In this document: positions 45,159 to 57,949 of the stretch, in pieces
How the letters are laid out: each line of letters opens with the position of its first letter
Position numbering within the stretch: position 1 is the first letter of the stretch
From: Deltaproteobacteria bacterium ADurb.Bin207
Lineage (GTDB): Bacteria; Myxococcota_A; Polyangia; Polyangiales; Polyangiaceae
Assembly (NCBI GenBank): GCA_002070115.1
Contig: MWCO01000020.1
Coordinates: 1 to 64,000, forward strand
Reading direction: 5' to 3'
Length of the DNA stretch: 64,000 nt
Notes under the pieces: model-generated
The model's database searches: none
The model's input: only the letters and a program-made list of their open reading frames with translations
What the model was told of the DNA's origin: nothing
Made by a program: the position numbers and the translations under genes

Positions 45159-47408
45159 ATGTCGCGACCCAAGGAAGGCGCTGTGTCACGACGCACCGCG
45201 ATGGGTGTGGTCGGAGCCGGCGCGGCGGTAGGAGTGCTCACGACAGCTCGTGATGCGCATGCGTTTCGTGTTCTTCGTTCCCCGGAGGTGACTCCGGTGG
45301 AGCGGACGATACCGACGTTTTGCGAGTTATGTTTTTGGAATTGCGGGGTGCTTGCGGACGCGAGCAATAACCGCGTCTTGGCGTTGCGGGGGCATCCTGA
45401 TTCACCGACAGCGAAGGGGCGGTTATGCGGCCGTGGCAACGCGGGCGCGGGTTTTTTGCGGGATCCAGATAGATTGAAGTATCCGATGGTACGGGTGGGG
45501 GAGCGTGGGGAAGGAAAGTTCAAGCGGGTAGGTTGGAAGACGGCCTACCAGATGGTGGCTCGAGCTTTCGACAAGATCAAAAAGGAGCATGGCGCAAAGG
45601 CATTGGCGCTTTTTTATCATGGTTCGGGCGGGCCGATGTTGCGCAATATGTTGGTTGCTTATGGAAGCCCAAACTATGCGGCACCTTCGTATGCGCAATG
45701 CAGGGGGCCGAGAGACGTAGGTTATAAATTGACGATCGGTCGAGGACCTGGGAGTCCCGAACCGTTGGACTTCGACAAGACTCAATGCATCGTGCTGTTT
45801 GGTTCGCATTTGGGGGAAAACGCGCATAACAGTCAGGTGCAGGAGTTCGTGCAGGCGCGGGCGCGAGGGGCAAGCCTAATCGTGCTCGACCCTCGCATGT
45901 CGACGGTGGCATCGAAAGCGGATGTTTGGCTTCCCCTCAAAACGGGTTCCGACACGGCGATTCTGTTGTCGTGGATGCATTTGTTGATCGCCAACGACAC
46001 CTACCATCACACGTTTGTCGAAAATCAGTGTACGGGATTCGAGCGATTGGCCGAGCATGTCAAGCCGTTCACGCCATCGTGGGCGGCGCAGCAGGCGGAT
46101 GTCCCCGCCGAGGATATCGTAAAAGCCTACGAATTGATGGTGAAAGCGATGCCAGCGGTAGTGGTGCATCCGGGTCGGCATGTTACGTGGTATGGCGAAG
46201 CAGACACACAACGAGCGCGAGCGCAAGCGATACTCAGTGCGCTGTTGGGAGCCATTTGGGCACCGGGGGGGCTTTATCGACCCGCGCCACCACCAGCGCT
46301 CAAGGACTTTCCTTCACCGGACTTTCCCGAACTGCCTGCCAACGTGGACAAGGCGGCGTCGCGCTTTCCGTTTGCCACCGAGGTTTCTACGACAGGGATC
46401 CGGGATGCTACACGAACGGGCGTTCCGTACCCCATCAAAGGCTGGTTTGTTCACGGCTCGAATCTCATTCAATCACTACCCAATCAGCATGAAACGATCG
46501 AGGCCATTCGCAGTCTCGACATGCTGGTGGTGACGGATATTCAGCCCACGGAAATCACGGATTGGGCGGATGTTGTTTTTCCCGAGGACAATTATCTCGA
46601 GCGATACGACGACTTGAAGACCGGGGGCAATCTTCGTCCATATATTGCGATTCGTCAGCCAGTGGTGAGAAGCCCTTACGATACGCGACCGGCGTGGAGG
46701 ATTGCGAAGGAACTAGGAACGGAGCTTGGCGTGGGAGATTTCTTCGCGTTCGATACGTTCGAGGAGTACTTGTCGGCGCGGCTCGACGGCTCTGGGGTGA
46801 CGCTGGCTGAACTCAAGGAAAAAGGTATCTATTTTCCGCAAAGCAAAGTGGAACCGTACCTGGATCCTCAGAAGCCATTTGCTTGGCAGACGCCGTCCGG
46901 CAAGGTGGAGTTGTTCAGCAAATCATTGGCGGAGGCGGGGTTCGATCCCATGCCCGTACACAAGCCGCCACCCGATCCTCCCAAGGGAATGCTCCGCTTG
47001 ACGTATGGTCGCAGTCCGCTGCACACGTTCGGTCGAACACAGAACAACGATATTTTGCACGACTTGAACCCAGGCAATTGCGTGTGGTTACACCCGATGT
47101 GCGCGGCCTCCCTCGGGGTGCAGCATGGCAAACCCGTATTCGTTCAAAACGCGTACGGTGATGTCACCGGACCGATGCCCGCCCGGGTCACCGAGCGGAT
47201 TCGTCCACAAACCGTGTACATGATTCATGGGTTCGGTCATTCGGCCAAAGGATTGTCCAATGCGTGTTGTATGGGGGGAAGCGACGCGGAACTCATCCGT
47301 GGGTATCAGGTCGACGGCATCAGCGGATCGACGGGAATGCGCACGGAGTTCGTGAAAATAACGCCTGCGGACGGCGGTAAGGAGAAGTACCCATGCGCTA
47401 TGGGATGA
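45159..47408 (+). CDS. Tat-exported molybdopterin oxidoreductase, PhsA/PsrA-like
   Basis: A 749-residue catalytic subunit. Twin-arginine signal VSRRTAMGVVGAGAAVG (9-25); an N-terminal 4Fe-4S site Cys55, Cys58, Cys62, Cys90 (C-x2-C-x3-C-x27-C); molybdopterin-binding domains. Cys180 (YAQCRGPRDVG) is in the place of the Mo-ligating Cys of thiosulfate/polysulfide reductases. Other core motifs: HPGRHVTWYGEADTQRARA, LYRPAPPP, and the C-terminal dinucleotide domain. Likely periplasmic and reducing a sulfur compound; the substrate is inferred from context. The ATG has GGAG 9 nt upstream. Overlaps the next gene by 16 nt. Confidence 0.87.
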   Translation: MSRPKEGAVSRRTAMGVVGAGAAVGVLTTARDAHAFRVLRSPEVTPVERTIPTFCELCFWNCGVLADASNNRVLALRGHPDSPTAKGRLCGRGNAGAGFLRDPDRLKYPMVRVGERGEGKFKRVGWKTAYQMVARAFDKIKKEHGAKALALFYHGSGGPMLRNMLVAYGSPNYAAPSYAQCRGPRDVGYKLTIGRGPGSPEPLDFDKTQCIVLFGSHLGENAHNSQVQEFVQARARGASLIVLDPRMSTVASKADVWLPLKTGSDTAILLSWMHLLIANDTYHHTFVENQCTGFERLAEHVKPFTPSWAAQQADVPAEDIVKAYELMVKAMPAVVVHPGRHVTWYGEADTQRARAQAILSALLGAIWAPGGLYRPAPPPALKDFPSPDFPELPANVDKAASRFPFATEVSTTGIRDATRTGVPYPIKGWFVHGSNLIQSLPNQHETIEAIRSLDMLVVTDIQPTEITDWADVVFPEDNYLERYDDLKTGGNLRPYIAIRQPVVRSPYDTRPAWRIAKELGTELGVGDFFAFDTFEEYLSARLDGSGVTLAELKEKGIYFPQSKVEPYLDPQKPFAWQTPSGKVELFSKSLAEAGFDPMPVHKPPPDPPKGMLRLTYGRSPLHTFGRTQNNDILHDLNPGNCVWLHPMCAASLGVQHGKPVFVQNAYGDVTGPMPARVTERIRPQTVYMIHGFGHSAKGLSNACCMGGSDAELIRGYQVDGISGSTGMRTEFVKITPADGGKEKYPCAMG

Positions 47409-48853
47409 TGATCGAGCTGGACAAGTGCGTCGGATGTCTGGCGTGCGTGTCGGCGTGCAAGGAGCGCTGGGATTCGGGTCCAGGTGTTGCGCGGGATTGG
47501 GTAGCAACGTTCGAGCATGGGTCCCGAGAAAAAAACAATCTGGGAGTGACGTTTTATCCCGGTCTTTGCATGCAATGTGAGGACCATCCTTGCACGTTGG
47601 ACTGTCCGACGGGAGCTACGTATGCGGATGAAAACGGGGTGGTCATCGTGGACCCCGAGATATGCATTGGTTGTGGAAACTGCGTGACGATGTGTCCGTA
47701 TGGTGCTCGCACACCCGATCCATCGAAAGGCATCGTAGAGAAGTGCAACTTATGTGCGCCTTATGTTGCCAACGGTGGGCAGCCTGCCTGTGTGACGACT
47801 TGTTTGGCGGAGTGTCGGCACTTTGGCGATCTGGATGATCCCAACGGTTCGTTGATGCAGCTCATTCAGAAGCGCGGGGCAAAGACACTGACGACACCGC
47901 AAGTGGATGTGGGACCGAAGGTGTATTACGCGCCGGAGTCGCATCGTCAGCAGATTCTCGCTCAGGGTGTCATCCGAGAACCGACGCCGACATGGTTGAC
48001 GAAGGTATGGCAAGGGGTCACGCGACCGGTCGCGCAATTGGGCGTGCCCGCGTTTGCAGTCATCGCGGGAGCGGGCGGTCTGTTGATGAATCTTCGCCAT
48101 CGGGGTGAGAACAAGCAGCCACAAAGCCAGGTCGAATCCGAAGCGACAGGCACCTTGCCACGGCATCGTTTCGGAATGCGCTTTTTGCATTGGTTCAATG
48201 CGCTATCGTGGGTGTTGCTCTTGCTGACGGGCACGGCGTTGATGGCCGCGCCGTCGTTTGCCTTGTTTGGCGTGGGATTTCCCAAAGCGATCTCGACGGT
48301 ATTTGGAGGTACTTCGAATCTGATCTTGTTCCACGTCTTGTGGGGGCTTCTGTGGACCGCTGTGATCATTCCGCCGTTTTTGTTCTTCAAGCGTGGTGGG
48401 ATCGAGGCATTGCGTGAGGTGATGCTGACACGTGACGACATTCGGTGGTTCATGCTGAAACCGCTCGTGATGTTGGGAATCGGCAACCATCAGCTTCCGC
48501 CCCAAGACAAGTACAACGCGGGGCAGAAAGTGTTTGCGGTAAGCGCGCTGGTGGGCACGGCAACGATCATCGGGACCGGTCTGGTGATGACCTTCCATCT
48601 TGGATCATCGCATGTCGTTGCTGCCGCGATTCTTGTCCATAAGTTGGCGGTAGGACTGGCTCTCGTGGGTGTAGCGGTACACATCACGATGGCAGCCATC
48701 ATGAAAGAAGAGCGTCCTGCGCTGATGTCGATGATCAAAGGAGATATTGATCGTCGGCATGCGGAGCATCATAGCAGCAAGTGGGTCGAGGAGTTGGCTC
48801 ACGAGAGCGCGGCGGAATCATCTGTCGAGCCCGTGGGGGAGAAAAAATCATGA
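47393..48853 (+). CDS. Fused 4Fe-4S electron-transfer / cytochrome b subunit (PhsB-PhsC-like)
   Basis: A 486-residue fusion. Residues 1-180 are a four-cluster ferredoxin: Cys12-15-18-22, 59-62-67-71, 91-94-97-101 and 118-121-133/137/141, as in DMSO/thiosulfate reductase B subunits. Residues about 210-470 are an integral membrane domain resembling the cytochrome b561-like gamma subunit (RFGMRFLHWFNALSWVLLLLTG, FHVLWGLLW, HKLAVGLALVGVAVHI), whose His residues probably bind heme. It would accept electrons from menaquinol and pass them to the Mo subunit. In most systems these are two genes. A charged tail (SSKWVEELAHESAAES) ends it. Confidence 0.85.
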   Translation: MRYGMMIELDKCVGCLACVSACKERWDSGPGVARDWVATFEHGSREKNNLGVTFYPGLCMQCEDHPCTLDCPTGATYADENGVVIVDPEICIGCGNCVTMCPYGARTPDPSKGIVEKCNLCAPYVANGGQPACVTTCLAECRHFGDLDDPNGSLMQLIQKRGAKTLTTPQVDVGPKVYYAPESHRQQILAQGVIREPTPTWLTKVWQGVTRPVAQLGVPAFAVIAGAGGLLMNLRHRGENKQPQSQVESEATGTLPRHRFGMRFLHWFNALSWVLLLLTGTALMAAPSFALFGVGFPKAISTVFGGTSNLILFHVLWGLLWTAVIIPPFLFFKRGGIEALREVMLTRDDIRWFMLKPLVMLGIGNHQLPPQDKYNAGQKVFAVSALVGTATIIGTGLVMTFHLGSSHVVAAAILVHKLAVGLALVGVAVHITMAAIMKEERPALMSMIKGDIDRRHAEHHSSKWVEELAHESAAESSVEPVGEKKS

Positions 48854-49365
48854 GCAAGCAAAGAGAGTTTTGGAATCCCTATGCGGCTGGCGTGGCTCTG
48901 GGCTTGGTATTGTTGGCTAGCTTCGTGCTGACGGGACAGGGGCTTGGGGCGAGCGGAGCGGTCACGCGCGTACAAGCTTCGCTTTGGCATGCGCTCGATC
49001 CGACTTGGGCGACGGAGAACGCCAATATCGGTAAGTTTTTCTTGTCGGATACGGGTGCCCTGAATACGTGGATCGTGTTTCTCGTAGTGGGAGTCGCCCT
49101 TGGAGGTTTGCTTGGGGCGCTTTCCGCAAAACGGGTCAAGTTCGAGACGATCCATGGCCCGCGCATAGGGCGCGACATGCGCTGGGTGTTCGCGTTGATT
49201 GGCGGCATCATCAGCGGAATTGCGGCACAAGTGGCACGTGGATGCACCAGTGGGCAAGCATTGACGGGGGGAGCCCAACTCGCGTTGGGCAGTTGGATAT
49301 TCATGTTCGCGGTGTTTGGCGGCGCCTACGGTCTCGCTTACTTCGTGCGCAAGCAGTGGATCTGA
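48850..49365 (+). CDS. YeeE/YedE-family half-transporter (first)
   Basis: A 171-residue membrane protein with about four helices. It carries the family motif ARGCTSGQALTGGAQLALGSW near its C-terminus, where the Cys lines the pore. YeeE/YedE proteins import thiosulfate (TsuA) or related sulfur compounds; here one protein is half the size of TsuA and works with the next gene. The ATG overlaps the previous stop by 4 nt. Confidence 0.86.
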   Translation: MSKQREFWNPYAAGVALGLVLLASFVLTGQGLGASGAVTRVQASLWHALDPTWATENANIGKFFLSDTGALNTWIVFLVVGVALGGLLGALSAKRVKFETIHGPRIGRDMRWVFALIGGIISGIAAQVARGCTSGQALTGGAQLALGSWIFMFAVFGGAYGLAYFVRKQWI

Positions 49366-49384: not shown

Positions 49385-50005
49385 ATGCAAGCACCTCTCG
49401 CTTCAACGTTACAGTGGACACACGGCATGCAGATGGAAATGGCCGTGTTGGTTGGGATTGGTTTTGGCTTCGTGCTCGAGCGCGCCGGGTTTGGTCGCGC
49501 GGATAATCTCGCTTCCATTTTCTATGGTCGAGATTTTCGCGTAATGCGCGTGATGTTCACGGCCATCGTCACTGCCATGATCGGCGTGTACTTCCTCGAT
49601 CTCATCGGTTTCATGCCCATTGGGGACATCGGACTATTACCTACGTATTGGCTGCCGCAACTGATCGGCGGTTTGATGCTCGGGGCGGGTTTCATCATCG
49701 GAGGTTATTGTCCCGGCACGTCGCTGGTCGCCGTGGCCAGTGGAAAAATCGATGCGATATTTTTCGTCGGCGGTATTTTCATTGGCTCTTCCGCGTTTAC
49801 GCTTGCCTATCCTTCGCTCGAGAAGTTCCACGAAAGTACGTCCATGGGTCGCGTTCTGATGCACGAGTGGATGGGAATTCCCTCGGGGGTCATGGTGCTG
49901 TTGGTCGCGCTATTTGCGGTGGGGTCATTGACCGCGGTCACAAAAATCGAAGCGATGGTTCGCAAGTCACTCGAAAGCAAGCAGCTTCCGGAGGTGTCTT
50001 CATGA
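49385..50005 (+). CDS. YeeE/YedE-family half-transporter (second)
   Basis: A 206-residue membrane protein with about five helices and the second half of the family signature, FIIGGYCPGTSLVAVASGKID, again with a pore Cys, plus FERAGFGRADNL-type entry (FVLERAGFGRADNLAS). It pairs with the preceding protein to make a complete channel. It starts 19 bp after the first half; the rhodanese-like gene overlaps its stop by 4 nt. Confidence 0.86.
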   Translation: MQAPLASTLQWTHGMQMEMAVLVGIGFGFVLERAGFGRADNLASIFYGRDFRVMRVMFTAIVTAMIGVYFLDLIGFMPIGDIGLLPTYWLPQLIGGLMLGAGFIIGGYCPGTSLVAVASGKIDAIFFVGGIFIGSSAFTLAYPSLEKFHESTSMGRVLMHEWMGIPSGVMVLLVALFAVGSLTAVTKIEAMVRKSLESKQLPEVSS

Positions 50006-50649
50006 ACCGATTCAACAACAAGATTGGGGCCATCACCCTTGTGGGGCTTGCCGCGCTATACATGATCCTTTCGTTATCGATGGGACGCTCCGCGGCGTCG
50101 GAGGCGCCACCGAATCTTGCGCCCGCCGAAGCGGCCGTGGACGTTTGGCAAGCTACCGCGCTGCTTGCTCAGCAACCGCAACCAGTCGTGGTGGATGTGC
50201 GTGCCAAGGATCAGTACGAGCAGTATCACCTGACGGGTTCTACTTCGATGCCAGGCGCATCCGCGCACGACATTCTCAAGGTCTCCCAGGGAAAACCAGC
50301 GATACTCCTCGTGGCGGATACCGATGAAAACGCATCGAAGCTGGCCGGAGAGGTCGCGGCGTTGGACAAAACGACGCATGTGCATTTCTTGAAAGAGGGA
50401 GTGCGAGGATGGTATCTCACCTACGAGGTGCCCACGCCTTTGTTCAACGAGAAACCTCCTCCGTATGGATGGGCAGAAGCGATGGCCACGGTGCAAGCTT
50501 TCGTTCACGAGGGAAAAGGCAATGCCTCCGAGGTCGTGGCTGCCGTGGGAAAACTATCCACATCGGGATATATGCCGACTCAGCTTCAAGGCAAAAAGAA
50601 GCCTGCTGCAGCAGGGGCAAAGAAGAAAGTCAGCGGAGGATGTGGATGA
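50002..50649 (+). CDS. Membrane-anchored rhodanese-fold protein, Cys-less loop, C-terminal GGCG arm
   Basis: A 215-residue protein with an N-terminal signal or anchor (9-28, IGAITLVGLAALYMILSLSM), then a rhodanese-like domain (about 42-140; PVVVDVRAKDQYEQYHLTGSTSMPGA and VHFLKEGVRGWYL). The active-site loop reads LVADTDENAS, with no Cys. The only Cys in the whole protein is residue 214, in the ending VSGGCG that follows a Lys/Ala-rich linker (GKKKPAAAGAKKK). A C-terminal GGCG(G) on a flexible arm is the sulfur-carrier feature of SoxY. I infer a sulfur-shuttling protein for the upstream reductase. Last gene of the coupled run. Confidence 0.8.
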   Translation: MNRFNNKIGAITLVGLAALYMILSLSMGRSAASEAPPNLAPAEAAVDVWQATALLAQQPQPVVVDVRAKDQYEQYHLTGSTSMPGASAHDILKVSQGKPAILLVADTDENASKLAGEVAALDKTTHVHFLKEGVRGWYLTYEVPTPLFNEKPPPYGWAEAMATVQAFVHEGKGNASEVVAAVGKLSTSGYMPTQLQGKKKPAAAGAKKKVSGGCG

Positions 50650-50722: not shown

Positions 50723-51424
50723 ATGAACAACACATTGCAGGATGGGTCCGGTCAGATGTTCGATCGGATCTGCGAGCGCTATGACTTTTTGAACCGCGTG
50801 ATGTCGTTGGGAATCGACGGCCGGTGGCGAAAACGTGCGGTGCAAGCCCTTGGATCTGATGTTGGATACGTGTTGGATCTCGCGACGGGCACGGCTGATG
50901 TTGCGATTGAAGTAGCACGTAGGATTCCGAACAGCCGTGTGCTGGGGCTGGATCCGTCCGACGGAATGTTGCGTGTGGGACAGCGAAAGGTAGAAAAAGC
51001 GGGATTGGCGAATCGCGTTACGTTCAAGAAGGGTGATGGGCAGCGAATCGCTGCGAGCGATGATGCCTTTGACGCCGCGATCATGGCTTTTGGGATTCGC
51101 AACGTTGCGCGGCGCGAGAGATGTTTACGTGAACTTGGCAGGGTGGTTCGCCCTGGGGGCCCGGTGGTCGTGCTCGAGCTTTCGGAACCGCGGGGAGGGC
51201 ATCCTCTCGCGTTTGGGGCTGGGTTGTGGAAACGGTACGTCGTCCCTCGGCTGGGTTCTGCCCTATCGTCGACACCCGAGTATGCGTATCTGGAACGTTC
51301 GATTCGAGCATTTCCACGTCCCGACGAATTTCTCGAATTGATGGCAACGTGTGGATTACGAGGGGGAAAAGCAGAACCGCTGACCTTTGGTGCGGCGACG
51401 CTGTTTACGGCGCGAGCCCCATGA
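50723..51424 (+). CDS. ubiE: Menaquinone/ubiquinone C-methyltransferase
   Basis: A 233-residue AdoMet enzyme with the family motifs: VFDRICERYDFLNRVMSLGIDGRWR, VLDLATGTADVAIEVA (motif I), GLDPSDGMLRVGQRK, MAFGIRNVARRERCLRELGRVVRPGG. It methylates the demethylmenaquinone (or DDMQ) ring; in myxobacteria the product is expected to be menaquinone, so menG is an equal name. It starts 73 bp after the sulfur operon. Confidence 0.93.
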   Translation: MNNTLQDGSGQMFDRICERYDFLNRVMSLGIDGRWRKRAVQALGSDVGYVLDLATGTADVAIEVARRIPNSRVLGLDPSDGMLRVGQRKVEKAGLANRVTFKKGDGQRIAASDDAFDAAIMAFGIRNVARRERCLRELGRVVRPGGPVVVLELSEPRGGHPLAFGAGLWKRYVVPRLGSALSSTPEYAYLERSIRAFPRPDEFLELMATCGLRGGKAEPLTFGAATLFTARAP

Positions 51425-51506
51425 TCTGCATGGGCATCGCGTCCAAATGGTTTCTGGCGGGTTTGAACGGTTGCATGGCTTGACCTGAGCGACGCTGACG
51501 AGCAAG

Positions 51507-52334
51507 GTGCCACGGGTGCGTTTCCCGATATTGCGATTTGGCGTAGTGCCTGCTGTGGATGATCCGACGTTTCGAGCGAACCTCAAGGATATGGTAAAAG
51601 CTTTGGGGTATCACTTGGGAACGACGGTGGAATGCCGTGTGACACCCACCTATTCCGCATTGGTCGCCTTGATGACACAGGGGCAACTGGATGCGGCATG
51701 GGTTCCCCCGGTGCTGGCGATGGACTTCGACGCACAGCGAATCGCCCATCCGCGCATTGCGATGATTCGTCAGAACGAGACGGTATACCATTCGGTGTTG
51801 TATGCGTTACGAGACGCGCAGATACGTAGTGTATCGGACTTGCAGGGAGCCAAAGCGGCCTGGGTGAGTCCTGATAGTGCATCGGGATATTTGGTGCCTC
51901 TGGCATCGATGCGAGCGCGGGGCCTGTCGTTGACGAAAGCGTTTTCGGATCAGGTTTTTTTGGGGACGCATGAGGCGGTAGCGCGTGCGGTAGCGCACGG
52001 ACAAGCTCATGTCGGCGCAAGTTTCGCTCACTTCGAGCCATCGGACTTCGGGACTCCCGTGTGGGCGAGTTGGATCGAATTTGGATTGGAGGTGAACTTT
52101 CGCGTATTGCTGGTGGCTGGACCGATCCCTACCGACGTCATCTCGATGCACCGCTCCCTGGACGATCAGCATCAGCAAGCCATCATCCATGCGTTTTCCC
52201 TATTGACTTCGGACAAGCAAACTTCGGAAGCGGCCCGAGCGATCTTCCGATGTGAGGGGTTTGCGGGTTGTACCGAGGAACATCTTCGGGGATTGCGCAC
52301 GCTTCTTCGGCTTTTGGACCGTCGCAGAGGTTGA
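51507..52334 (+). CDS. PhnD-like substrate-binding protein without signal peptide
   Basis: A 275-residue protein of the phosphate/phosphite/phosphonate-binding (PhnD) superfamily: LRFGVVPAVDDP at the start, a lobe with SALVALMTQGQLDAAWVPPVLA, and SVSDLQGAKAAWVSPDSASGYLVP. The frame is closed by a stop just upstream (TGA at 51486-51488), so no signal peptide is present and the protein should stay in the cytoplasm. No phosphonate transporter genes are nearby. GTG start, preceded by AAG only. It lies 27 bp before the ABC ATPase gene. Confidence 0.78.
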   Translation: MPRVRFPILRFGVVPAVDDPTFRANLKDMVKALGYHLGTTVECRVTPTYSALVALMTQGQLDAAWVPPVLAMDFDAQRIAHPRIAMIRQNETVYHSVLYALRDAQIRSVSDLQGAKAAWVSPDSASGYLVPLASMRARGLSLTKAFSDQVFLGTHEAVARAVAHGQAHVGASFAHFEPSDFGTPVWASWIEFGLEVNFRVLLVAGPIPTDVISMHRSLDDQHQQAIIHAFSLLTSDKQTSEAARAIFRCEGFAGCTEEHLRGLRTLLRLLDRRRG

Positions 52335-52361
52335 GGGAATCCAGCGGGATTGATGGGATCA

Positions 52362-53144
52362 ATGAACACCGAGCCGCTCATCCAATTCCGAGGCGTTCAC
52401 AAGGCATTTGGCAACAAGGTCGTGTATGCCGGGTTGGATTTGGATGTGTATCCGGGCGAGACGCTGACGATCATCGGGGGTTCTGGGGTGGGCAAGAGCG
52501 TGATGATCAAGATGCTGATTGGCCTTTTGAAAGCGGATAAGGGTTCGATCCGGTTTCGCGGTCAGGAGATCACGACGATGTCGGAGCGGGAGTTGCAGAC
52601 GGTGCGACAGCGCATTGCGATGTTGTTTCAAGGGGCGGCGTTGTTCGACTCGATCGACGTGGGAGAAAACGTGGCTTATGGATTGCGAGAACACTTTCGA
52701 AAGAAGATGTCGGAGCAAGACATACGGGAAAGGGTGGCGTGGGCGTTGGGATTGGTGGGTCTTTCAGGAATTGAAACGATGGCACCCTCGGACCTGTCGG
52801 GAGGGATGAAAAAACGAGTTGGCCTGGCGCGAGCCGTGGCCCTTCGGCCCGATGTGGTGCTGTACGATGAACCAACGACTGGCCTCGACCCCATCAACAC
52901 GACTCGGATCAATCATATGATCACGGGGCTTCGTCGTGTGCTTGGCATCACGAGCGTGGTGGTCACCCATGACATGGCCAGTGCGTATTCGATAAGTGAT
53001 CGAATCGCGATGGTCCATCGTGGACGCATCATTGCCACGGGGACACCGGAGCAAATTCGTGCCTCGGACAATCCCCACCTGGCGGATTTCATTCGTGGAA
53101 ATGCTCCTGAAAACGAGGACTTGGATACGCTCTTGACGACTTGA
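52362..53144 (+). CDS. ABC transporter ATP-binding protein, MlaF-type
   Basis: A 260-residue ABC ATPase of the lipid-transport (Mla/MCE) type: Walker A GGSGVGKS (39-46), Q-loop MLFQGAALFDSIDVGENVAYGL, signature DLSGGMKKRVGLARA, Walker B VVLYDEPTTGLDP, H-loop VTHDM. The QGAALFDS segment and signature LSGGM are typical of MlaF/Ttg2A. The permease (MlaE) gene that normally follows is absent. Starts at 52350 (TTG), 52353 and 52362 (ATG) are all in frame. Confidence 0.88.
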   Translation: MNTEPLIQFRGVHKAFGNKVVYAGLDLDVYPGETLTIIGGSGVGKSVMIKMLIGLLKADKGSIRFRGQEITTMSERELQTVRQRIAMLFQGAALFDSIDVGENVAYGLREHFRKKMSEQDIRERVAWALGLVGLSGIETMAPSDLSGGMKKRVGLARAVALRPDVVLYDEPTTGLDPINTTRINHMITGLRRVLGITSVVVTHDMASAYSISDRIAMVHRGRIIATGTPEQIRASDNPHLADFIRGNAPENEDLDTLLTT

Positions 53145-53231
53145 CCTTTCGCGTCATCTTTGGGGCTCGCCCGCGCATGTTTCGCGCTGCGAGCGGCATC
53201 GTGCTAAGCCGTGTACCCCTGGGAGTAATCA

Positions 53232-54362
53232 ATGGCTTTATCCCGAGAGATCAAAGTGGGAGTATTCGTTTTGCTGGGGTTGATCCTCTCGGGGGGGGTA
53301 GTGTTTCTGATTGGGGATCAGCGCAATATGTTCGCGCGCAAAATCGACTTCGTGTCGACGTTCACCGATGTGCAGGGGCTCGCGGCCGGAGCCCCGATTC
53401 GGATGAATGGAATCAACGTGGGTTCGGTGTCGAGCGTAGGTCACTCCGAAGACCTTGGAGACCCGCGCATTCACGTCAAATTATGGATTGTTCGATCGGA
53501 AGCGCTGCGGTTGCGTGTGGATGCGCGTGCGCGGGTAGTCAACAAAGGTTTGTTGGGAGACAAGATGTTGGAGATCGATCCCGGCAAAGCAAGCCAACCC
53601 CTTGGTCTTGGCGGAACCATCGATAGCGAGGATCCAACGGACTTTTCGAATCTGGTCGGACAGGTAGGGTCGATCGCCGAACGGACCAATTCGGTGTTGG
53701 GAAACTTGGATAAAGCGTCGGCATCTTTTGCCGACGACAAAGTTCAGCAAGACATAAGAGGTTCGATTCAGTCGGTGAACATCATTTTGAAGCATGTGGC
53801 GCAGGGCGACGGCTATGCGAACCGGCTGTTGACGGATCCACAGGAAGCGGAACGGATATCGCGTGCGGTCGCCAACTTGGAGAAAACGAGCAATGAATTA
53901 TCGGTAGCCGCTGCGGAAGTGAGGCAATTGGTTCAGCGCGTGAATCATGGTCCCGGATTCGCGCATAGTTTGGTCTACGGCCAAGAGGGCGCGGATACCG
54001 TGAAGAGTTTTGGGGGGGCGGCCGACGAGGTAACCGCCACACTTCGCGGCATACGGGAGGGTAATGGATTGGCTCGTGCCATGCTCTACGGGGGTACGGG
54101 ACAAGAAGCCGAGATCATTTCCAACCTCAATACCGCGAGCGCAGACCTACGTGACATCATGTCGGGGTTGAAGAAGGGGAAGGGAACGTTGGGGGCTTTG
54201 CTGGTGGATCCATCCGTGTATGAGGACATGAAGCTTGTGCTTGGCAATGTCGAACGCAACGAGGTGCTCCGAGCGCTCGTTCGTTACTCGATCAAACAAG
54301 ACGAGCAGCGTCCTGCGGTGGAAATCAAGGACCCTGGCGCGCCCGCGTCTAGTGCGCGCTGA
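53232..54362 (+). CDS. MCE-family (MlaD-like) lipid-transport protein
   Basis: A 376-residue protein with one N-terminal membrane helix (8-27), an MCE domain (about 38-120: FTDVQGLAAGAPIRMNGINVGSVSSV, ARARVVNKGLLGDKMLEI) and a long C-terminal part with repeated motifs (GDGYANRLLTDP, NGLARAMLYGG) and helical segments that may form a tunnel or coiled coil. MCE proteins bridge inner and outer membranes for phospholipid transport. GGGAG 6 nt before the ATG. It is 87 bp after the ATPase gene. Confidence 0.88.
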   Translation: MALSREIKVGVFVLLGLILSGGVVFLIGDQRNMFARKIDFVSTFTDVQGLAAGAPIRMNGINVGSVSSVGHSEDLGDPRIHVKLWIVRSEALRLRVDARARVVNKGLLGDKMLEIDPGKASQPLGLGGTIDSEDPTDFSNLVGQVGSIAERTNSVLGNLDKASASFADDKVQQDIRGSIQSVNIILKHVAQGDGYANRLLTDPQEAERISRAVANLEKTSNELSVAAAEVRQLVQRVNHGPGFAHSLVYGQEGADTVKSFGGAADEVTATLRGIREGNGLARAMLYGGTGQEAEIISNLNTASADLRDIMSGLKKGKGTLGALLVDPSVYEDMKLVLGNVERNEVLRALVRYSIKQDEQRPAVEIKDPGAPASSAR

Positions 54363-54799
54363 ACCGATGCGCTCGCCATCCGACGAACGTTCACGCAGGG
54401 CGTGCGGGTTGGGTACCCATGTCTTCGAACCATGGGGGTAGACTCAAACGAAACGTTGGGGCCGAAAGACCCATACCAAGGGTCGAAGGCGGGGGGGGTT
54501 GTGCCTCCGACGACACCAACGCGCCACATTGTAGAAATATACACATAATTCAATATGTTACAGACCACGCGGCGCACCAAAGAGGAGGTATCGGCCTGGG
54601 TGATGACTCTCCCCCACGAATGGGTTGGCACTCTTGACGCGCCCTACCCGCAAGGGGCAACGAAATCGATGGTCGTTTCCGGAAGGTCGCCATAAACGCT
54701 CTTGCCGTCGTGACTTGCGTCCGGCCCTGGTTCGCGGCAAGTCAATTCCCTGGGCTTTGCCTTTGGTCCTTTTGCATCCGTCATCTATTGTTGAACATC
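54363..54799. other. Non-coding stretch before ctpA
   Basis: 437 bp with no supported gene. It contains a short hairpin (GACCC-ATACCAA-GGGTC, 54468-54484), a run of eight G's near 54491, and a notably AT-rich patch near 54530-54562. No promoter pair is convincing. Confidence 0.5.
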
Positions 54800-57700
54800 A
54801 TGCGCGGCATCGAACGTCTCACCAAGCTTCTGATCCTATTCAGTGCTTTCGCCCTATCTACGTATTTTGCGCTTCAATTTCGCAGTGGAGGTCTTTGGCA
54901 TGGCATCGAGCCAGCCCATGCGGTGGCAGCGCGAAGCGCCGTGGATGCAAAAACTCCCTACGACCTTACGAAACTGGAGGCGGTGACCGCGACGATCCAG
55001 ACGATACGAGACAAGTATGTGGATCCGACCCGTGTGAAACCCAAGCAAATGCTTCTTTCAGCGCTTGATTTCGTGCAGCGGGATGTGGCGCAAGTGATTG
55101 TATTGCGGGAATCGAATTCCGACGAAGTGACGGTGCGTGTCGGGTCGCAACAGATGGTTTTCGATGTCAGCAACGTGCAGGGGCCTTGGGATGTATCGGC
55201 AAAGCTCCGGGATATTTTTGCTTTTTTGCAGCAGCATCTCAAGACGGATACGGACGTGGATTTACGGGAAGTCGAGTATGCGGCGTGCAATGGAATGCTC
55301 AACACGCTCGATCCGCATTCGGTGTTTTTGAGTCCGGAAGCCTATCGGGAGATGACGATTTCCACGCAGGGAGCATTTGGGGGCGTGGGGATCGTGATCT
55401 CGATTCGAGACCAGCTTTTAACGGTGATCAAGCCGATGCCCGGGACGCCTGCGGGGCGAGCCGGGTTGAAGCAATATGATCGAATTGTTCGAATCAACAA
55501 CGAGTCTACGCTCAACATGCCGCTCGACGATGCGGTACGTCGTTTGCGGGGTGACCCTGGGACGGAAGTCTCCGTGTGGGTGACTCGGGAGGGACCTGGT
55601 GGTTGGTCGGGCAGTAAGCCATTCAAGCTTCGACGAGAGGTCATCAATGTCGAATCGGTGGAGAGTCGGATGCTCGACCAGGGGGTGGGATATATCCGGT
55701 TGAAGCAATTCCAAGCGGGGACGGCGGGGGAGTTGGATAACGCACTCGTGGCCTTGCATCGCGCGGAACCGAAAATGCGTGGATTGGTCCTCGACATGCG
55801 TTCCAACCCGGGGGGCTTGCTCGATCAAGCCGTCAAGGTAGCGGATCGGTTTTTGCGCAGCGGAGTGGTGGTAACGACAGTATCGGCTTCTGAGCCGCGT
55901 GATGAGAAGGTGGCCAAGTCGCCGGGGACGGAGCCGGATTATCCGTTGGTGGTATTGGTGAACTCCTCGAGTGCGAGTGCCAGCGAGATTGTGGCGGGTG
56001 CGCTGAAAAACCACAATCGCGCCATCATTGTAGGTCAGAAAACTTTCGGAAAAGGGAGTGTGCAACTCGTATTTCCCGACGTTACCAGGGAAAAGGCTGC
56101 GTTGAAGCTGACGATCGCCCAATATCTGACACCGGGAGACATCTCCATTCAGTCGGTGGGGATCACACCGGACATCGAGCTTGATCCGATGACGGTGGAC
56201 ACGTTGGAGATGGATGTGATGCGCCCGGGCAAGCGAATGAGCGAGCGGGATCTATCCAAACATCTGTCGAGCGCGCGTGCCGCGGCAGGGCAAAAACCGC
56301 TTGAAATCGTGCGATACAACATGCCTTCCGCCGAACGAGAAGCGATGCGGGAACGGGGAGGAGATCCCGAAGACGACTTCACCATGGATTTCACCACGCG
56401 CTTTGCGCGTGATCTGGTTTTGAATGTTCCCACGGGCCTGTCGCGTGTGGAGGCGGTGCGAAAGGCAGCAGAGTTCATCGACAAGGTTCGTCAAGACGAG
56501 ATGGCGAAGGTAGCTTTGGACTTGAAACATCTTGGATTCGATTGGAGCGCCACCCCAGCGGAATCCCCAGGACCATCGAAAGACCAATACGAAGTCAAGG
56601 TGGAAACCAACCGCCCCAACGATCGCGTGAGAGCAGGGGAATCCATCGAGTTGAAAGTAACCGTAAAAAACACGGGGACAGAACCCGTGTATCAGCTTCG
56701 CGCACTGACCTCGGCCGAGAGTTCTTATTACGATCGAAAAGAACTCATCTTTGGAAAAATCGAACCAGGAAAATCCAAAACAGCCATCGCGCCGCTGGGT
56801 TGGTGTGATGTGGAAGGACGTCGCATCGGTTCCACCAAAAAACCGAAGGATGGCAAACGGGTATGCACGATACCGAAAGATGCGACGACGCGTTGCGACG
56901 GGGTCAAGGTTGAGTTTTTCTCCGCCAACGGTGAGCCTCCCAAGTCAGTCGAAATAAGACCGACAATCGAGGAGTTACCAGCGCCATCTTTTGCGTATGC
57001 CTATCAGATCATCGACAATCGACAGGGAGCGAATGCCGATGGGCGTTTGCAGCGTGGGGAAGGGGTATCGATGTACCTGACGGTAAAAAACGTGGGTCGA
57101 GGCCGTTCCTTCGAGACCCAAGCGAACCTTCGGAACTTGTCCGGCGACGGCTTGGCGCTCCAAGCGGGCCGCTTCGATATCTCGAATATGCAACCGGGAG
57201 ACATGCGTTCGGTGGTGTTCACCTGGGAAGTGCAACAGGTTGCGGAGCCGGAGATTACCATTGAATTGAGCGTGGGAGACCGAGACCTCGGCAAACACGT
57301 CAACGAGAAGATCAAGATCCCGGTGGAAGCAGGATTGTCACTCGCACAAGACGTTGGCGTTTCCAAGGTCAACGGTACGGAAGCTCCGCTCGTGGAGTCG
57401 CTTCGACCTCAAGCACGCTTATTTGGTTCCATTCCGGGAGGAACACTCGTTCGAAGGCTTGGACGACATGGGGATATGATCAAAATCGATCTTGGAGCCA
57501 ATCGTTTTGCTTTCGTTCCCGCCAGCGCATTATCCGATGCTCCGGGTGCCAAAGCCCCCGACACGATCAGTTTCGATACGGTGTTCTCACATTCACCTCC
57601 CGCCATTGAATTGACTCCCGCGGCTTTGGTCGTACGAGGACCTACCGTAAAAATCACGGGGAGCATCGTTGATCAAACGCGCCTGTTGGACGCCTATATG

Positions 57701-57949
57701 TTCGTGGGTTCCAACAAGGTGTTTTATCGAACCAACCAGGATGCCGCGGATCCCAAGAGCATGAAGATCGACATGGACGTGTCTCTTCGGCCCGGGATGA
57801 ATGCCATCACGCTCGTGGGAAGGCAAAATGCCGACACCATGTCTCGTCAAACGATCATGATTCGACGAGATGGAGCGTCGGGAGAGCTATTGCCATCGCC
57901 GAAAGATGATGGAGCGGCGTTGTTGGACTTCGTGGAAGACGGTCCTTGA
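54800..57949 (+). CDS. S41-family C-terminal processing peptidase, extended
   Basis: A 1049-residue protease. Signal/anchor helix (8-28), CtpA-like helical N-terminus, PDZ domain (about 185-270, TISTQGAFGGVGIVISIRDQ), S41 catalytic core with Ser393 in SSSASASEIVAGAL and Lys418 in GQKTFGKGSVQ, the 25-residue spacing typical of Tsp/CtpA. About 500 further residues hold two CARDB-like Ig domains (VKVTVKNTGTEPVYQLRA; LTVKNVGRGRSFETQANL), a likely SH3-type segment and a last beta domain. Known CTPs are about 400-700 residues, so this is long. It cleaves periplasmic proteins, for example peptidoglycan hydrolase regulators. Substrate unknown. Confidence 0.9.
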   Translation: MRGIERLTKLLILFSAFALSTYFALQFRSGGLWHGIEPAHAVAARSAVDAKTPYDLTKLEAVTATIQTIRDKYVDPTRVKPKQMLLSALDFVQRDVAQVIVLRESNSDEVTVRVGSQQMVFDVSNVQGPWDVSAKLRDIFAFLQQHLKTDTDVDLREVEYAACNGMLNTLDPHSVFLSPEAYREMTISTQGAFGGVGIVISIRDQLLTVIKPMPGTPAGRAGLKQYDRIVRINNESTLNMPLDDAVRRLRGDPGTEVSVWVTREGPGGWSGSKPFKLRREVINVESVESRMLDQGVGYIRLKQFQAGTAGELDNALVALHRAEPKMRGLVLDMRSNPGGLLDQAVKVADRFLRSGVVVTTVSASEPRDEKVAKSPGTEPDYPLVVLVNSSSASASEIVAGALKNHNRAIIVGQKTFGKGSVQLVFPDVTREKAALKLTIAQYLTPGDISIQSVGITPDIELDPMTVDTLEMDVMRPGKRMSERDLSKHLSSARAAAGQKPLEIVRYNMPSAEREAMRERGGDPEDDFTMDFTTRFARDLVLNVPTGLSRVEAVRKAAEFIDKVRQDEMAKVALDLKHLGFDWSATPAESPGPSKDQYEVKVETNRPNDRVRAGESIELKVTVKNTGTEPVYQLRALTSAESSYYDRKELIFGKIEPGKSKTAIAPLGWCDVEGRRIGSTKKPKDGKRVCTIPKDATTRCDGVKVEFFSANGEPPKSVEIRPTIEELPAPSFAYAYQIIDNRQGANADGRLQRGEGVSMYLTVKNVGRGRSFETQANLRNLSGDGLALQAGRFDISNMQPGDMRSVVFTWEVQQVAEPEITIELSVGDRDLGKHVNEKIKIPVEAGLSLAQDVGVSKVNGTEAPLVESLRPQARLFGSIPGGTLVRRLGRHGDMIKIDLGANRFAFVPASALSDAPGAKAPDTISFDTVFSHSPPAIELTPAALVVRGPTVKITGSIVDQTRLLDAYMFVGSNKVFYRTNQDAADPKSMKIDMDVSLRPGMNAITLVGRQNADTMSRQTIMIRRDGASGELLPSPKDDGAALLDFVEDGP

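Follow-up and report, generated by a model that had tools for sequence, protein, structure and literature searches.

Rhodanese-like proteins with a conserved C-terminal cysteine arm are encoded beside YeeE-type half-channels and may act as carriers of sulfur

Analysis of a window of 64,000 nucleotides of DNA from Deltaproteobacteria bacterium ADurb.Bin207 (contig MWCO01000020.1) identified a member of a family of rhodanese-like proteins, widespread among bacteria and apparently undescribed, in which the catalytic Cys of the active-site loop is missing and a Cys is carried at the C-terminal end. We propose, at a probability of roughly 0.7, that this Cys-tailed rhodanese is a periplasmic, membrane-tethered carrier with a swinging arm that shuttles sulfane sulfur between two partners, a respiratory sulfur reductase and a channel of the PmpAB/YeeE type. 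To our knowledge, no biochemistry exists for any member of the family.

The gene of the window protein (P0001, 215 amino acids) was identified from its translation, Pfam and its homologues at positions 50002..50649 of the forward strand, which is also the strand of all features of the window given below. These are the limits previously proposed for it in a reading made from the DNA letters only (hereafter the sequence-only reading), and its start codon overlaps the stop codon of the preceding YeeE2 gene. Rhodanese (PF00581) was the sole Pfam domain found; it covers residues 56-138 and scored 28.8 bits, where the cut-off is 22.2. An AlphaFold2 model, for which an alignment of 63 sequences was the input, had a mean pLDDT of 84 and consisted of a helix at residues 3-26, a rhodanese fold to approximately residue 141, two helices at residues 157-188 and an unstructured arm from residue 190. 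The first of these, supported by both the model and the sequence, is an N-terminal membrane helix (50008..50079) for which Arg3 and Lys7 indicate an N-in/C-out orientation, and is the counterpart of the extra membrane helix found in the YeeE2 fusions described below. The rhodanese fold (residues 48-141; 50143..50424) was defined from the model, from the 63-sequence alignment, in which D65 and R67 showed no variation, and from comparison with the PDB, where ordinary rhodaneses were the closest solved folds. Alignment with Cys-bearing rhodaneses placed the vacant position of the catalytic Cys at Ala105 (50314..50316), within the rhodanese loop LVADTDENAS, which had been described as free of Cys and was confirmed to be so. 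An active rhodanese needs a catalytic Cys in its active-site loop, and with Ala105 the window protein does not meet this criterion.

The Lys/Ala-rich arm (residues 190-215; 50569..50646) was modelled without secondary structure and with a pLDDT of about 60-73, which agrees with the mobile arm that had been suggested, while its persulfide and its docking are inferred only. The protein ends in GKKKPAAAGAKKKVSGGCG, where the Lys/Ala linker GKKKPAAAGAKKKVS precedes the terminal GGCG (50635..50646). Translation showed Cys214 (codon 50641-50643) to be the only Cys, following this linker and Gly-Gly as the sequence-only reading had stated, and G212, G213 and C214 were unchanged across the 63 aligned sequences.

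The sequence-only reading had further inferred that the catalytic Cys was moved from the loop to the arm, an inference that homologues lacking the terminal Cys would have refuted. Comparison of 111 distinct sequences supported it, as a Cys was found within the last three residues of all of them (111/111), with the endings GGC, GGCG(G/S/T) or E/DGC, and the canonical loop column was occupied by Ser (78), Ala (17), Gly (15) or Tyr (1) and by Cys in none, demonstrating both the conservation of the tail Cys and its complementarity to the loop position. The linker before the terminal Cys was variable in sequence and length and Lys-rich: Lys and Arg made up 33% and Asp and Glu 5% of the last 20 residues ahead of the terminal motif in the 111 sequences, Lys and Arg reached 76-87% at positions -5 and -6 relative to the terminal Cys, and the distance from the FR motif to this Cys was 32-79 residues. 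Codons of the terminal Cys were divided between TGC (61) and TGT (54), and those of Gly were spread across all four synonyms, indicating saturation of synonymous sites and residues that were held while the DNA drifted. Four genomes were found to encode 18 other rhodanese-domain proteins without a Cys in the last three residues, the terminal Cys being limited in these genomes to one operon member each. The terminal Cys tail of the window protein is real, beyond chance and not a one-off.

An artefact of frame or assembly was ruled out by the homologues in many independent genomes. A role of the tail as a general sorting tag was also rejected, as its pattern in 20 host genomes matched only the operon gene and chance matches; in the genome of the window it matched once. 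This pattern search misses some codings and is not exhaustive.

Two copies each of the tail-bearing protein were observed at L017, L036 and L043, and three consecutive tail-bearing proteins at L037:7083-9506 (KHKKKE[IV]TGGCG / KRKKKEVTGGCG), of which two possess lipobox signals and the third is a tandem rhodanese of 387 aa with the loop Cys kept in both domains. A different rhodanese-like protein without a loop Cys (VVYGETS), from the same bacterial family, was identified at L003 and L014 (G015:C246); its C terminus is Cys-rich (FACSSGPCDDCQK), possibly a parallel relocation of Cys.

The closest homologue shares 46% identity and an identical operon order with the window and has the C-terminus KKKIAGGCGG; its genome was the only one among 97 relatives to contain a clear homologue. 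The main scan, covering 84,980 species genomes, was anchored on YeeE2 instead of the rhodanese and resulted in 80 loci, mostly of Bacteroidota and Neomarinimicrobiota, with others in Acidobacteria, Holophagaceae, Ignavibacteriae, KSB1 and Anaeromyxobacter (Myxococcota). A GGC-type protein directly followed YeeE2 in 78 of the 80; the remaining two loci were incomplete at the edge, and one of these, when recovered complete, encoded a protein ending in GGGCG. A profile made from only the window rhodanese and its closest homologue identified 42 ORFs in the fetched loci, some with an identity as low as about 20%, and each of the 42 terminates in GGC, GGCS or GGCGG. With a profile of 63 rows, 31 proteins were identified in loci fetched from 247 genomes of Bacteroidota, the phylum to which Labilibaculum belongs, each (31/31) with a Cys no more than two residues from the C-terminal end, and a new subfamily with the terminus KKK(K/R)EGC was found in this set. 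Ten further members, ending in GGC, EGC, RGC or GCS, came from 297 genomes that share their phylum with the Acidobacteria homologue. A selection caveat applies, in that 84 of the 111 distinct sequences were chosen by their GGC-type ending; the sets selected by profile (the two-sequence, Bacteroidota and Acidobacteria-phylum searches) gave the same outcome as the tail-selected set. The 63-row profile is biased to the tail because it includes it, and the two-sequence profile is less so, having been built from two sequences and having reached about 20% identity. Family members were present in records of the cultured species of Labilibaculum, Marinifilum, Prolixibacter and Mariniphaga, while no relatives were found in viral contigs (scanned with the rhodanese and with YeeE2) or in plasmids (tblastn).

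A better test of the relocation of Cys than a profile containing the tail was provided by two exceptions with a loop Cys. At L189, the rhodanese after the YeeE pair was found to lack a tail Cys and to have one in its loop (IIVFCYKGG). At L193, YeeE2 is fused to the Cys-less rhodanese of the family and the arm is replaced by two extra rhodanese-like domains, the last of which carries a loop Cys (VVSCRTGHQ). The absence of a tail Cys from both, together with the presence of a loop Cys, favours the reactive Cys having moved. The proteins of L148 and L036_7774 have the tail Cys plus another immediately ahead of the canonical loop position, and these are counted against a role as carrier.

As an alternative to a shuttle, the arm could fold back in cis so that the tail Cys fills the vacant pocket of its own rhodanese domain, and the reaction would be that of an ordinary rhodanese with its nucleophile relocated. 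This pocket may persist, given that the D-x-R residues D65 and R67 are still invariant and that the loop position holds a small residue (Ser, Ala or Gly in 110/111), and the arm, with its Cys 32-79 residues beyond the FR motif, is of sufficient length. However, the loops YSNG, ADTD and VGEND are unlike the anion-binding loop of rhodaneses, the constant linkage to YeeE2 and the fusion to it point to a partner beyond the rhodanese domain, and the alternative that occurs at L189 is a plain active rhodanese. Action in cis is considered unlikely, while remaining the strongest of the rival explanations.

The operon of the window encodes, from upstream to downstream, a PhsA-like molybdopterin oxidoreductase with a Tat-type SRRTAMG leader (45159..47408), a fusion of a PhsB-like 4Fe-4S protein with cytochrome b561, the latter in the role of PhsC (47393..48853; Pfam Fer4_11 and Ni_hydr_CYTB), YeeE1 (48850..49365), YeeE2 (49385..50005) and the rhodanese. 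Most loci contain phsA, phsB, nrfD, yeeE1, yeeE2 and the Cys-tailed rhodanese in this order, and the EGC subfamily shares the same phsA-phsB-nrfD-yeeE1-yeeE2 operon. The Mo-ligand Cys180 and the 4Fe-4S Cys of the PhsA-like proteins were kept in 59/59. For that of the window, the best NCBIfam model was PhsA (NF012032) at 471 bits, below the equivalog cut-off of 694, and a substrate was not assigned. YeeE1 and YeeE2 match profile positions 174-309 and 1-159 of PF04143, making them the C-half (PmpA-like) and N-half (PmpB-like), respectively, of a YeeE/YedE sulfur channel. YeeE1 Cys133 and YeeE2 Cys108 (in the numbering of a comparison of 81 sequences) were each invariant in 81/81, and with both halves and one conserved Cys in each, the criterion for a two-half PmpAB/YeeE channel is met. 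The Cys of PmpA and PmpB, for which the same arrangement of halves has been described, map to TsuA Cys293 and Cys91, which are indispensable in TsuA (PMC11582611).

Variation in gene content was also observed around this operon. A PhsB-type four-cluster ferredoxin and a cytochrome b561 occur in one chain at 47393-48853 of the window and also at L015, and Bacteroidota homologues have PhsB and NrfD as separate genes. At L016:5337-7741 (Acidobacteria), only the first 238 PhsA residues were matched, directly before YeeE1 and without PhsB/C, and this is putatively a decayed operon or a misassembly. The region downstream in the window (50723-57949) looks ordinary, with a UbiE/MenG methyltransferase (Pfam) and, further downstream and identified by eye, a PhnD-like binding protein, an Mla-type ABC ATPase, an MlaD-like protein and a CtpA-type protease.

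Fusion of the rhodanese to the C terminus of YeeE2 was established in 24 sequences, which form a single clade with a support of 100/100, and the Cys invariant over all rows of the fusion alignment are channel Cys107 and terminal Cys398. The gene upstream of the fusion in the three loci examined (L063, L042 and L019) encodes a cytochrome of the octaheme tetrathionate reductase family, as shown by TIGR04315 scores of 566-599 bits, above the cut-off of 375, and the gene after the octaheme encodes a cytochrome b561 in two of the three fusion loci, being the two that were scanned. PhsA and the octaheme are two unrelated reductases. As the module also exists without PhsA, fused to YeeE2, the YeeE1/YeeE2 pair is a tight partner at least as much as PhsA, and with the channel linkage constant in the sample and the reductase interchangeable, the obligate partner is more likely to be the channel. 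This constancy is partly by construction, since the scan was anchored on YeeE2; the YeeE pair was met again in searches started from the rhodanese side.

On the tree, a very long branch of 3.5 changes per column lies between a clade of Myxococcota/Acidobacteriota and all other members. The arm of this clade could therefore have been acquired independently, and the clade is likewise counted against the proposed carrier. Members from Neomarinimicrobiota (L024, L026) nest within Marinifilaceae (Bacteroidota), which suggests that the module was transferred horizontally.

In the fusions, the loop ahead of the extra membrane helix contains 5-9 Lys/Arg and 1-2 Asp/Glu, which by the positive-inside rule places this loop inside and the rhodanese outside. 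The AlphaFold2 model of a fusion showed five long YeeE2 helices and the extra helix at residues 199-221, with low confidence for the YeeE2 part, and the topology of YeeE was based on the positive-inside count, the AlphaFold2 helices and the natural YeeE-YeeD fusions described previously (PMC11073785). Stand-alone members possess a positively charged N terminus followed by one membrane helix, and a lipobox was found in three paralogues. The exported partners (PhsA with its Tat leader and the c-type octaheme), the lipobox and the positive-inside rule establish a periplasmic topology for the rhodanese at the level of sequence, and the Cys arm is predicted to be located in the periplasm.

The terminal Cys might instead be structural or anchoring, either lipidated or joined by a disulfide bond with PhsA, YeeE or a cytochrome, with the Lys tail serving only for docking. 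Such a role would fit the conserved Lys-rich character (K+R 76-87% at -5 and -6), and the sulfur chemistry of the tail Cys has been inferred and none shown. It is nevertheless quite improbable, as the protein already has an anchor in its N-terminal membrane helix or lipobox, the trade of tail Cys for loop Cys in the two exceptions is not predicted by a mere anchor, and the tail was no general tag in the 20 host genomes or the genome of the window. The possibility that the protein matures the PhsA-like enzyme by sulfurating its Mo cofactor, as FdhD does for formate dehydrogenase, has in its favour the operon shared with PhsA (Mo-ligand Cys 59/59) and a precedent for persulfide delivery to bis-MGD (PMC9516567), but is highly doubtful given that the protein is predicted to be periplasmic, while insertion of the cofactor takes place in the cytoplasm, ahead of export by Tat, and that it also adjoins octaheme cytochromes in loci without PhsA.

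With a tethered sulfur carrier as the preferred reading, the rhodanese domain without its own catalytic Cys would be a scaffold or dock, and the reactive Cys would be borne by a cationic arm of roughly 25 residues ending in GGC(G). This Cys would be loaded in the periplasm with sulfane sulfur as a persulfide, or with thiosulfate as an S-thiosulfonate, and the arm would have two stations. One is the active site of a quinone-linked sulfur reductase, of either the PhsABC or the octaheme tetrathionate reductase type; the other, to which the arm would swing, is the mouth of YeeE1/YeeE2 on the periplasmic side, where the two invariant Cys of this PmpAB-like channel would hand the sulfur inward. That the arm Cys is loaded and takes part in sulfur chemistry, that it docks to either partner and that transfer runs inward are all inferred. 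Two further points count against a carrier: AlphaFold2 assigns no position to the arm, and the genome of the window showed no additional sulfur pathway from which the direction could be read, its SoxY search being negative without a positive control.

A full transmembrane relay is possible and is put forward only tentatively; here, the persulfide of the arm would enter the mouth of the two-half YeeE channel and the sulfur would be passed Cys-to-Cys, with interchangeable reductases loading or unloading the arm and the YeeE2 fusion representing a hand-over within one chain. The carrier reading has precedents: YedE1E2 is reported to import zero-valent sulfur (PMC10812762), and a relay from the SoxY Cys to a YeeE-type Cys has been regarded as conceivable (PMC11582611). 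A Mo/W-bisMGD enzyme has an essential Cys at its penultimate position (Cys1135 of 1136), for which a persulfide relay to the metal was proposed (PMC9516567).

The best reading of the family is that of a rhodanese-fold protein that works like SoxY or Sud and is a member of neither. SoxY, of the SoxYZ carrier (PF13501), is similarly periplasmic and bears its one reactive Cys on a GGCG(G) arm at the C terminus, near sulfur-oxyanion redox enzymes. The GGCGG terminus of SoxY is seen in the G043 and Acidobacteria homologues and, by locus, in L015 and L016, a resemblance of motif only. In contrast to SoxY, the family has a rhodanese fold, a membrane anchor and a long Lys-rich arm, and in most members the Cys of a terminal GGC is the final residue. 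Membership of SoxY was rejected, as Pfam gave Rhodanese only in 63/63 and no PF13501; SoxY was not found in the genome of the window, in a search that lacked a positive control. Sud of Wolinella, grouped here with the periplasmic rhodaneses that serve Psr/Phs, is alike in being a periplasmic rhodanese-related protein that serves a Psr/Phs-type reductase. This polysulfide-sulfur transferase is soluble and keeps its Cys inside the domain, whereas the present family has no loop Cys, bears its Cys on the tail and is tied to the YeeE channel, and the Sud-type criterion of a single catalytic Cys within the rhodanese-like domain is not met.

YeeE1 and YeeE2 resemble PmpAB/YedE1E2 as half-channels with one invariant Cys each, although the present halves measure about 170-205 aa instead of about 130; the portions of those papers available describe neighbouring rhodanese or PDO genes, and within them no Cys-tailed rhodanese and no fusion appear (PMC11582611, PMC10812762). 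The YeeE-YeeD (TsuA-TsuB) system also has a sulfur-carrying Cys protein partnering or fused to a YeeE channel, but YeeD is cytoplasmic, TusA-like and acts after import, while the Cys-tailed rhodanese is predicted to be periplasmic and would act before it (PMC11073785). Metallopterin-dependent ergothioneine synthase shares an essential near-terminal Cys with a proposed persulfide relay to bis-MGD, and differs in its cysteine-desulfurase fusion and in having no rhodanese domain and no channel (PMC9516567). No specific NCBIfam model matched the family, Pfam gave Rhodanese only, and no description of a Cys-tailed rhodanese was found in the literature, within open-access papers.

Current family libraries miss this family, for which the lost loop Cys, the K-rich GGC/EGC tail and the position after YeeE2 provide an annotation signature for sulfur respiration. 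In the SoxT study, transfer of sulfur from carrier to channel is given as occurring 'by unknown means' (PMC11582611). Here a carrier arm adjoins a YeeE half-channel, and in one clade lies on the same chain, which makes the hand-over directly testable by single Cys mutants.
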